From: Halarchaeum grantii
GTDB lineage: Archaea; Halobacteriota; Halobacteria; Halobacteriales; Halobacteriaceae
NCBI RefSeq assembly: GCF_014647455.2
Contig: NZ_BMPF01000002.1
Span: 124,001 to 188,000 of the forward strand
Direction: 5' to 3'
Length of the DNA: 64,000 nucleotides
In this document: positions 1,885 through 58,666 of the stretch, piece by piece
Layout: every line of letters begins with the position of its first letter
Position numbering within the stretch: the stretch's first letter is position 1
Notes under the pieces: generated by a model
The model's database searches: none
Told to the model about the DNA's origin: nothing
Seen by the model: the letters and a program-made list of their open reading frames with translations, nothing else
Program-made: the position numbers and the translations under genes

Positions 1885-1955
1885 ATCGGCGTGTCGGCGT
1901 CGGGCGACAAAGCGGTTGTCCTCCGCGACGCCGACCGCGACGGCGCGGCCGAGCG

Positions 1956-2945
1956 CTAGATCGTCTCGAGGACGCCGATCACCGTCTCCTCGGCCGCGCG
2001 CTCCGGGCCCTCCGACTCGCCCGTGCGCTCGGCGTCGCGGTGGTCCGCCGCGGTCCGCGCCATCGCCTCCTCGACGGGCGTGGACTCCCAGCCGAGCGCT
2101 TCGAGCTTGTGCGTGTCGAGGAGGTGCGGTGCCGGCCGATAGAGCGGGAACGAGCCGAGCGAGAGGCCGGCCGTCGAGAGCTCGCGGTCGCTCGCGTGGA
2201 CGATGTCGACGTCGGTGTCGAGGCAGTCGGCGGCGAGTTCGACGGTGTCCTCGAGCGTGAGCGCGTTCCGGTCGCCGACGTTGTACGCCTCGCCGGGCGT
2301 CCCCTCCTCCGCGACGACGCGGAGCGCGGACGCGACGTCCTCGACGTAGACGCGCTGCCAGAGGTTCGTCCCGTCGCCCGGCACCACCACCTCGTCGTAC
2401 TCGCTCACGCGGTGGAGCCAGTAGTCGAGGCGCTCCGAGTAGTCGTGCGGGCCGTAGACGACCGTCGGACGGACGGCCATCGCGGGCGCGCCGCGCTCGG
2501 CCGCCCGGAACACCATCCGGTCGCCCTCCGCCTTCCGGTTCCCGTAGGTCTCCGGCGAATCGTCCGCCGCCTGATCGGCCGAGCACTCCCGAAGCGGCGT
2601 CACGCCCTCACGCTTCGGGACGTCGTCCACCGCGTACGACGCGCCCGAGGAGACGTAGACGTAGGCCTCGACGTCCGCGAATATCTCCGTCGCCTTCCGC
2701 ACGTCGCGGGGCTGATAGGCGACGCAGTCGATGACGACGGCCGGTTCGACCTCGCGTTTCGCCGCGAGTAGCTCGCGGTCGTTCGCGCGGTCGCCCTCGT
2801 AGTGGTGGACGTCCGGGTGGTCGCTGAACGGGTTCGCGTGCTCCCCGCGATTGAACACGGTCACCCGGTAGTCGTGCTCGAGGAGTTCCGCGACGGTGTG
2901 GCGGCCGATGAACCGCGTGCCCCCAACGACGAGTGCGCTCTGCAT
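1956..2945 (-). CDS. NAD-dependent epimerase/dehydratase family protein
   Basis: A 329-residue extended short-chain dehydrogenase. The N-terminal Rossmann motif GGTRFIGRHTV binds the dinucleotide, and the catalytic Tyr-x-x-x-Lys is present as YGNRK near residue 142, preceded by the Ser-rich strand SSGASYAV. The C-terminal half carries the substrate lobe. Relatives act on nucleotide sugars or have RNA-binding chloroplast homologues, so the substrate cannot be read from sequence. It is transcribed in the same direction as egsA, with 71 bases between them. Start MQSALVVGGTRF puts the Rossmann strand at the N-terminus as expected. Confidence 0.88.
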   Translation of the reverse strand: MQSALVVGGTRFIGRHTVAELLEHDYRVTVFNRGEHANPFSDHPDVHHYEGDRANDRELLAAKREVEPAVVIDCVAYQPRDVRKATEIFADVEAYVYVSSGASYAVDDVPKREGVTPLRECSADQAADDSPETYGNRKAEGDRMVFRAAERGAPAMAVRPTVVYGPHDYSERLDYWLHRVSEYDEVVVPGDGTNLWQRVYVEDVASALRVVAEEGTPGEAYNVGDRNALTLEDTVELAADCLDTDVDIVHASDRELSTAGLSLGSFPLYRPAPHLLDTHKLEALGWESTPVEEAMARTAADHRDAERTGESEGPERAAEETVIGVLETI

Positions 2946-56366: not shown

Positions 56367-56720
56367 TCAGGGGCGACGCGCCGGATACGTCGTCGGTGCC
56401 TCGGCGTCCATCGAGACGTCGCGCTGCTCGAAGTCGAACGCCGTCGCGAAGCGCTCGCGGAGTTCGAGCGCGCGCTCCTCCTCACGGCCCCGCGCTCGCA
56501 CCTCGCGCTCCTCGAGCGCCGCGATGACGACGCGCGCCTCCGCTCGGGTGAGCGAGACCGTGAGGCGGTCGTCGCTCGCCTCGGAGAAGGCCGCTTCGAG
56601 GTCCGCAATCGTCTCCCGTTCGACGTCCGGCGCCTTCGCCTCGTGGCGGTCCAGTGACTCGCGGGCGATCTCCGCTTCGTGACCAGTGAGTTCGATCTCG
56701 CGGCTCTCTGATTCCTCCAT
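56367..56720 (-). CDS. Helical conserved protein, 117 aa
   Basis: A soluble acidic protein with two helical repeats, each built around a helix that begins with LTGHEAEIARESLDRHE or LTRAEARVVIAALEERE, suggesting an internal duplication (residues 10-30 and 50-70). The C-terminus has an aromatic-proline tail (TTYPARRP). No family recognised. It follows the DUF5787 gene by 55 bases in the same direction and may be in its operon. Confidence 0.7.
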   Translation of the reverse strand: MEESESREIELTGHEAEIARESLDRHEAKAPDVERETIADLEAAFSEASDDRLTVSLTRAEARVVIAALEEREVRARGREEERALELRERFATAFDFEQRDVSMDAEAPTTYPARRP

Positions 56721-56775
56721 GGCCCGGCGGAACGTCGAACGCGGTCGATAAACAGGTATCGGCCGCGCGCGCCGC

Positions 56776-57780
56776 TCAGTCCCCCGCGTCCGTGCGCCGA
56801 CGTCGCCGGCGCTCGGCGAGGAGGCGCTGAACCGCCTGCCCCGGGCCGCCCTCGATGGGCCACCCGCGCTGGCGCCATCCCGGCGGCTCCGGGCTGAACT
56901 CGGCGCACGAGCCCGCACACTCCGCGGCGGTCTGCTCGCGCCCCTTCGCGCGGCAGAACGGGACGTAGCCCTCGCCAGCGCGCCGGAGGTCGAAGGCGCG
57001 ACAGTCCGGGCGCATCGTCTCGACGTACGAGCGCCACCCTCGGCCGTACGCGCGCTCGGCGATGCGGCGGCGCGTCTCGCGCTTCTCCTCGGGCGGGACG
57101 TACTCGAACTCGGTCGGGTCGCCGTGGGCGGTGACGCGTACGCCCGTCGCGTCGGGGTCGAGCGAGCGGGGGTGCCACGCGACCGTCGCGTCCATCTCGC
57201 CCCCGACCGTGAGGACGCCGGCCGCCGTCGGCATCTCCGTGACGAGCGCGCGCGTCTCGTCGGCGCGCGTCGCCACCCACACCTCGTCGGCGAGGCCGAG
57301 CGCGACGTCGCGTTCGAGTTGGGCGGCGAGGTCGCGCGCCGCCGACGCGTCGAGGTCGGGTTTGTTCTCGACGGCGACGATCCGACGCACCCAGTCGGGA
57401 TAGGGCGCGACGCGGCGTATCTCGATGCGGTTCGAGCGCTTTCGCTCCTCGAGGACGCCGCGCGCGCTCGCCCGATGGACGGCCTCGCGCACGTAGCGCC
57501 ACCCGTAGCCCGGATCGGGAAGGGCGTCCCGGTAGTACGTCCACTCCGCGGGGGCGTGGCGCGCGAGCGAGAGGAGTTCGGGGTCGAGTTCGCGCTCGCC
57601 GAGGGCCGCGCGCGTCCGCACGCCCTCGGGGTCGGCCTCGACGATCACGGTGTCCCAGCGCCGCCGCTGGGTGCCGAGTTGACGCGCGACGAGCACGCGA
57701 CTGTCCGGTTCGGCGGGCGTCCAGTGCCGCTCGGCCCACGCGCAGACCCGGAGTTCGAAGCCGAACTCCGCGCCCGGCAT
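56776..57780 (-). CDS. DUF5787 family protein; possible PD-(D/E)xK nuclease with cysteine cluster
   Basis: A 334-residue uncharacterised protein. The middle part resembles a restriction-endonuclease fold: RWDTVIVEADPEG (Asp43) is a candidate first acidic strand, and IVAVENKPDLDASAARDLAAQL carries Glu138-x-Lys140 on a beta strand followed by a helix and the strand DEVWVATRAD. Five Cys are at 13, 260, 276, 288 and 292, with one near the N-terminus and four at the C-terminus, similar to Fe-S nucleases such as Cas4. The Nudix gene ends one base before its ATG, so the two are cotranscribed. The nuclease reading is my inference. Confidence 0.8.
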   Translation of the reverse strand: MPGAEFGFELRVCAWAERHWTPAEPDSRVLVARQLGTQRRRWDTVIVEADPEGVRTRAALGERELDPELLSLARHAPAEWTYYRDALPDPGYGWRYVREAVHRASARGVLEERKRSNRIEIRRVAPYPDWVRRIVAVENKPDLDASAARDLAAQLERDVALGLADEVWVATRADETRALVTEMPTAAGVLTVGGEMDATVAWHPRSLDPDATGVRVTAHGDPTEFEYVPPEEKRETRRRIAERAYGRGWRSYVETMRPDCRAFDLRRAGEGYVPFCRAKGREQTAAECAGSCAEFSPEPPGWRQRGWPIEGGPGQAVQRLLAERRRRRRTDAGD

Positions 57781-57781
57781 C

Positions 57782-58207
57782 TCAGAGGTCCTTCTCGTCG
57801 AGGAAGTCGTGGGCGTCCTCGAGGATTTCGCGCGGGCCGTCCTGCGTGATGGTGTTCAACGCCTGTTCATAGTCACGCCATTGGAGGTCGGAGTGTTCCT
57901 TCGAGAGCTCGGCGGACGCCTCGAAGGACTTCGCGATGAAGAGGTGGACCGTCTTGTGGATGCGATTGCCGTTCGCCTCGAAGACGTAGTCGTAGTCGTC
58001 GCGGAAGCCGTCAACGAGTCTGAAGTCCCCGATGCCGGCTTCTTCCTTCACCTCCCGAATGGCTGTCTGTTGGAGTTCCTCGTCCCCCTCCACACCGCCC
58101 TTCGGGAATTCCCAGTCCCCTGGGCGACTCTTGAGGAGGAGGTATTCACGCCGGCCCCGGGTGTCCCGGAAGAGGATCGCGCCGGCGCTGGTTGCTTCAA
58201 CCGTCAT
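57782..58207 (-). CDS. Bis(5'-nucleosyl)-tetraphosphatase, Nudix family
   Basis: A 141-residue Nudix hydrolase starting MTVEATSAGAILFRDTRGRREYLLLKSRPGDWEFPKGG. The Nudix box is intact (GGVEGDEELQQTAIREVKEEAGI), with all metal-binding Glu. Sequence resembles asymmetric Ap4A hydrolases (SAGAILFR, DWEFPKGGVE), which cut diadenosine tetraphosphate to ATP and AMP and limit alarmone build-up. The ATG at 58207 is preferred over the GTG at 58216 because a CTTAAT box is 27 nt from it. The downstream DUF5787 gene starts one base after its stop. Confidence 0.92.
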   Translation of the reverse strand: MTVEATSAGAILFRDTRGRREYLLLKSRPGDWEFPKGGVEGDEELQQTAIREVKEEAGIGDFRLVDGFRDDYDYVFEANGNRIHKTVHLFIAKSFEASAELSKEHSDLQWRDYEQALNTITQDGPREILEDAHDFLDEKDL

Positions 58208-58312: not shown

Positions 58313-58666
58313 ATGGTTACGCAGTTCCCAGCCATGACCTTCGTAACCAGCCTCACACTCGAAAGCGGGGACCGAGCGGCCCTCGACGACATCGTCGGGG
58401 AAATCCGCGACACGGTCCGCCGCAAGGGCGCCGAACTCAAAGGACCGCACTCGGACTCCCCGAAGCAACATTTCGTCTCGCAGTACAAGCAACTCGACGG
58501 CGAGGGCGACACCTACGACGCGTGGAGTTACACGGTGTATCGACGGCGCGTCGAGATCCGCGGCGCGGACGACCTCGCTCGCGACATCATGACCTGGGAC
58601 TTCCCGAACAGCGTTCACGTCACGGCCGACATCGAGCGCGTCCAGCACGTCGGCTCGCCGGCGTAA
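58313..58666 (+). CDS. uS10/mL48-like ribosomal-fold protein
   Basis: A 117-residue protein resembling ribosomal protein uS10: TFVTSLTLESGDRAALDDIVGEIRDTVRRKGAELKGPHSD is the S10 beta-alpha core with the GxxLKGP loop, then YTVYRRRVEIRGADDLARDIMTWDFPNSVHVTADIER. It lies outside any ribosomal-protein cluster, unlike canonical uS10, which is normally next to EF-1A in archaea. It may be a paralogue with a ribosome-associated or other role. ATG at 58313 suits the promoter; Met at residue 8 (58334) is the alternative. Confidence 0.85.
   Translation: MVTQFPAMTFVTSLTLESGDRAALDDIVGEIRDTVRRKGAELKGPHSDSPKQHFVSQYKQLDGEGDTYDAWSYTVYRRRVEIRGADDLARDIMTWDFPNSVHVTADIERVQHVGSPA

Follow-up and report, generated by a model that had tools for sequence, protein, structure and literature searches.

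We analysed a 64,000-nucleotide stretch of the Halarchaeum grantii genome (contig NZ_BMPF01000002.1, positions 124,001 to 188,000; hereafter the window) and report here on a gene within it that encodes a protein of the family DUF5787 (PF19100). We propose, with a probability of about 0.72, that DUF5787 proteins are metal-dependent DNA endonucleases of the PD-(D/E)xK superfamily with a core like those of MmcB and the Holliday junction resolvases, and that one of two haloarchaeal paralogues, which we call B, is tethered to the sliding clamp PCNA; the window gene is the other paralogue, A. The proposal is built on residue conservation and a structural model, and catalysis, metal binding and PCNA binding by these proteins are predictions. 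New here are the presence of the family in 387 of 391 genomes, nearly always as two paralogues, and the PCNA-interacting protein (PIP) box of B. The window gene matched the PF19100 profile with an E value of 3.6e-111 (371.8 bits, against a curated cut-off of 25), and no paper found by our literature search, whose coverage excluded most subscription journals, names DUF5787.

The 391 genomes were sampled from the Halobacteria, and PF19100 was present in 375 of the 377 good ones, with two matches in nearly every genome; in a sample of the phylum the profile scored above its cut-off solely in haloarchaeal genomes. In a tree of 180 sequences, A (111 and a mislabelled one, L204, which was labelled B and is actually an A copy) and B (68) formed clearly separate groups, with support of 0.95 and 1.0, and the window gene fell in A. 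The B loci were L113, L114-L142 and L169-L208, and counts over 180 sequences given below include both A and B. The two paralogues of this genome are ~36% identical, and the loci nearest to the window copy came from Halarchaeum species (78-80% identity).

Alignment of these 180 homologues revealed no variation at E9, E17, R33, Q34, D43, E138, N139, K140, D142, Q154 or D158; with the four late Cys described below, which are equally constant, this pattern is far from chance. An AlphaFold2 model of A, built with 80 homologues (mean predicted local distance difference test, pLDDT, 84; predicted template modelling score, pTM, 0.85; gene residue numbers are one higher than those of the model), arranged the chain as alpha-beta-beta-[wHTH]-beta(ExK)-alpha-beta, where wHTH stands for a winged helix-turn-helix. 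Its N-terminal part consists of a helix (4-18), a strand (27-35), a second strand that carries D43 (40-48) and the winged helix (61-123 in model numbering); the middle holds a strand with E138 (130-138), a helix with Q154 (144-160), a strand (165-171) and then a small sheet; and the last part comprises a helix (229-246), a hairpin region rich in Cys and, at the C-terminus, a basic helix. The conserved Asp and (D/E)xK motif that define membership of the superfamily are found on adjacent core strands. From this confident model we conclude that the predicted DUF5787 core has the PD-(D/E)xK fold, interrupted by a winged helix that follows the Asp strand and precedes the ExK strand. An earlier reading of the window, made by a model from the sequence only, had guessed at such a nuclease or at a degenerate relative of one. 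The guess at the fold stood up, since the core appears in the model and Asp43, Glu138 and Lys140 do not vary, as did every residue position it had listed (D43, E138, K140, C13, C260, C276, C288 and C292); a degenerate relative is unlikely, as the catalytic residues were lost in none of the 180 homologues. Because two old paralogues keep all active-site residues, we argue that DUF5787 is probably a working enzyme, in which the putative metal ligands are assigned by analogy.

Comparison of the model with solved structures using VIA-align gave SPO1766 (3dnx), of the MmcB family, as the top match (Z 11.4, 2.9 angstrom, 129 of its 146 residues) and PaqCI as the second (Z 10.9); VC1899, AF2093, SfsA, EndoMS and NucS scored Z 6.8-7.2, a range typical of common arrangements. 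About 60 residues of the inserted wHTH were matched by the same program to wHTH domains of the MarR, DsrD and ArsR type at Z 6-8. Independently of VIA-align, a search of a viral library placed MmcB-like repair proteins 2nd, 11th and 23rd. We tie 3dnx to the MmcB family because the MmcB-like protein of Dickeya phage JA13 (PF06319, E 3.4e-15) finds 3dnx by sequence (E 3.7e-7). Beyond the core fold, DUF5787 resembles the MmcB family (PF06319, COG5321; SPO1766 and Caulobacter MmcB) in the RxD ... ExK order, in an Asp after ExK and in a strand whose end shows a (C/A)D-hydrophobic pattern; unlike MmcB, it is about twice as long and contains both the winged-helix insertion and a Cys4 domain. PF06319 was not among the Pfam matches of the window protein at E<=1, and it matched 0 of 148 Halobacteriota genomes. 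EndoMS/NucS, a fold match at Z 6.8, differs in having an Sm/OB-like N-terminal domain, with neither an inserted wHTH nor a Cys4 site, and copy A differs from it in having no PIP box. The archaeal Holliday junction resolvase Hjc shares the order of helix-1 Glu, Asp and ExK with DUF5787; unlike DUF5787 it has no wHTH or Cys4, and no direct match to it was found. The MmcB family (DUF1052) was linked to the archaeal Holliday junction resolvases by Kosinski in 2005 (PMC1189080).

Several observations weigh against the nuclease assignment. Foldseek found no match in the PDB at E<=0.001 (best, 0.0076), and the hhalign alignment of DUF5787 to a profile of 11 MmcB proteins was weak (P 0.0011, probability 20%), although its register was right despite this, ExK being aligned with ExK and ADEVWVAT with CDRFYWAV. 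The Cys region of the model has only moderate confidence (pLDDT ~73-84), and neither A nor B lies in an operon with repair genes. Some of the top Foldseek rows (ApbE, RNase Z) were implausible (probability <0.15) and were discarded, and it was VIA-align that settled the closest fold; searches of PDB sequences with the protein and with an 81-sequence profile gave nothing meaningful.

Among the clues to function the strongest is the PIP box, a feature of B and not of the window copy. All 68 B proteins carry a C-terminal Q-x-x-L-x-x-(F/W/Y), usually RRQSGLDRFG, and this terminal motif was absent from all 111 A proteins, the window copy included. Among the 5,605 reading frames of at least 100 residues in the first 112 loci, the strict motif <=3 residues from the end occurred once, namely in B itself. 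The tail of B (QSGLDRF) is nearly the same as the FEN1 tail in this class, which read QTGLDRWT or a close variant in 17 of the 17 loci where it was readable. According to a review, the Haloferax PIP box is QxxLxxFx (PMC7776575). Motifs of this kind are carried by NucS, NreA and the core replication nucleases (PMC4929162). From its tail sequence we therefore predict that B may be a client of PCNA in almost every haloarchaeon. The archaeal PCNA interactome is only partly known (reviewed in PMC4929162), and B, if the clamp tag is true, would be a new candidate for it. Such a tag, together with a wHTH, would also fit a non-catalytic DNA-binding or scaffold protein that has the PD-(D/E)xK fold, and no activity is on record for DUF5787. 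Degenerate members of the superfamily usually lose their catalytic residues, however, and the constancy of E9, D43, E138, K140 and Q154 across two old paralogues leaves a scaffold role very improbable.

The cysteines were the second element of the sequence-only reading, which saw in Cys13 and four late residues (C260, C276, C288 and C292) a Cas4-like set. Not all of the five proved invariant: the late four are identical in 180/180 homologues, whereas Cys13, which lies on the same helix face as E9 and E17 and one helix turn from each, is constant in all 111 A and is replaced by Ser (two) or Ala (three) in five of the 68 B copies (L114, L190, L124, L125 and L205). All five of these copies retain the late four, which are on this account independent of Cys13. 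The spacing of the late Cys is 15/11/3 in most A (C-x15-C-x11-C-x3-C in the window copy) and 12-18/12/3 in most B, as against C-x2-C-x5-C in Cas4 proteins of the same class, and hhalign of DUF5787 with a profile of 12 haloarchaeal Cas4 proteins failed to align them (P 0.51, probability 0.1%). The window protein had no Pfam match to Cas4 (PF01930), whose single match in this genome lies elsewhere; Cas4 was also not among the matches listed from the 1000 chains compared with VIA-align, which is no evidence against a Cas4/RecB-type fold. DUF5787 has in common with Cas4, Dna2 and AddB a PD-(D/E)xK core and conserved Cys, and the early Cys and the late four are all invariant in A, as would suit an Fe-S nuclease in which the early Cys and three late ones hold a 4Fe-4S cluster. 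The number of Cys, their spacing and the dependence on the early Cys all differ from those enzymes, with no profile similarity, and we give this Cas4-type alternative very little credence; the '1+3' cluster itself is rejected because Cys13 is dispensable in B and the late spacing is unlike that of Cas4.

The late four Cys probably form a Cys4 metal site instead, with zinc as the preferred metal. Folded alone, the Cys region gave a low-confidence model (pLDDT 68, pTM 0.56). Its sole profile cross-match was a sub-threshold one to methionyl-tRNA synthetase (MetRS), in a Cys-rich region that generally binds zinc, and this is a faint hint of zinc. In the same nuclease the late four Cys might bind a redox-active Fe-S cluster, given that the set is absolutely conserved and that related nuclease families contain Fe-S clusters (PMC5704561); with the zinc hint against it, this variant seems rather unlikely, if less so than the alternatives above.

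In the mechanism that we favour, the Glu, Asp and Lys would hold Mg2+ or Mn2+ and cut the phosphodiester bond, while the winged helix, situated in the loop that joins the two catalytic strands, would grip or position duplex DNA beside the cut. The four Cys would hold a structural Zn2+, with the Cys4 knuckle bracing the C-terminal region. Loaded on PCNA, B might cleave DNA that is damaged or branched, either at the fork or behind it; the task of A might be related but not tied to the clamp, perhaps in repair or as the partner of B. The steps from fold to function are ones that we infer; A and B are best read as paired nucleases of repair or replication, one of which is tethered to the sliding clamp. 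Since MmcB protects Caulobacter from mitomycin C (PMC9578287), crosslink or fork repair is the leading candidate phenotype. A bolder version, which we hold to be possible but doubtful, is that the two nucleases, each with its wHTH and Cys4-bound metal, cooperate, with B bringing the pair to PCNA, in a lineage-specific pathway directed at particular structures or lesions, e.g., crosslinks or stalled forks. Either way, a near-universal haloarchaeal family, present mostly in two forms, has had no assigned function, and a winged helix inside the catalytic core combined with a Cys4 module would, if true, be a new domain arrangement of a repair nuclease.

Table 1. Coordinates of the DUF5787 gene, its predicted elements and related or neighbouring genes (window positions unless stated).
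Feature	Position	Strand	Basis
DUF5787 paralogue A, 334 aa, predicted PD-(D/E)xK nuclease	56776..57780	-	Pfam match, model, fold matches
First part of predicted nuclease core, aa 4-46: helix 1 (E9, E17), strands 1-2 (R33, Q34, D43)	57643..57771	-	model and invariance
Cys13, early Cys	57742..57744	-	invariant in all A; Ser or Ala in 5/68 B
D43, predicted metal-binding Asp of active site	57652..57654	-	invariant 180/180
wHTH insertion, aa 62-124, separating core strands 2 and 3	57409..57597	-	model and fold matches
E138-N-K140, predicted catalytic motif, core strand 3	57361..57369	-	invariant 180/180
C260, C276, C288, C292 (aa 260-292), predicted Cys4 metal site around beta hairpin	56905..57003	-	invariant 180/180, model secondary structure
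Nudix hydrolase, Ap4A-hydrolase-like, upstream neighbour	57782..58207 (ATG), 58216 if GTG start	-	PF00293, PDB relatives, synteny
117-aa reading frame just downstream of DUF5787, outside the finding	56367-56720	-	third reading frame of the noted interval 56367-58207
Small protein with ribosomal S10-like domain, divergent from Nudix gene	58313-58666	+	PF00338, E 2e-12
DUF5787 paralogue B of same genome, 321 aa	L113:1501-2463 = G000:C1:923556-924518, other contig, outside window	+	PF19100 match

The gene upstream of DUF5787 encodes a Nudix protein (PF00293, E 1.8e-18) whose best solved relatives are diadenosine tetraphosphate (Ap4A) hydrolases (3i7u, E 9e-15; 3u53, 1kt9 and 1xsa), and it ends one base before the DUF5787 start codon on the same strand. 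Both its Ap4A-type label and this one-base gap had been given in the sequence-only reading and were confirmed, as was the adjacency as such: 68 of 79 A loci have a Nudix orthologue upstream in the same orientation. In 50 loci the two genes leave no room for another between them (<=250 bp, roughly measured). What gained little support was the functional tie that had been drawn from it, because the divergent S10-like gene (66 of 80 A loci) and DUF5797 (54) are conserved there too, and we regard Nudix-DUF5787 as part of a conserved block, not a specific pair. The synteny is thus weak evidence of function. That the two genes act as a single unit, in nucleotide-alarm signalling or in the sanitation of nucleotides, would agree with the frequent adjacency, with the one-base gap in the window and with the MmcB-like genes of several jumbo phages, which overlap a Nudix gene; it is nevertheless improbable, given that 18 of the 68 loci have intervening sequence, that 11 have no such Nudix gene, and that no Nudix neighbour was seen beside B. 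At most B loci the convergent neighbour encodes a metallo-beta-lactamase-fold protein, and in 13 of 26 an eIF2-gamma-like translation factor gene runs divergently from B.

The phages concerned are Dickeya and Erwinia jumbo phages (the two overlapping genes at L210:1444-1932 (-) and 1922-2374 (-); also H5-H7, H14, H23, H25 and H28). Their overlap may be an independent parallel to the haloarchaeal adjacency, whether by chance or through a real tie. On the other side of DUF5787, the 117-residue frame belonged to no family and had, besides its own genome, one partial match among 38 genomes of the class. Models of anti-phage defence systems gave no match.

Viral contigs held no close relatives of DUF5787, and a combined-profile search of the genomes that lack the family and of other classes, run without a positive control, returned no match. 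Sub-threshold DUF5787 matches in methanogens (L143 and L145) proved to be the Cys-rich part of MetRS and were rejected as homologues; PF19100 matches of this kind can mislead annotation. Both paralogues were missing from four genomes of the order (G021, G218, G285 and G382), three of which belong to the small-genome family f11, where either an early branch or a loss is possible.
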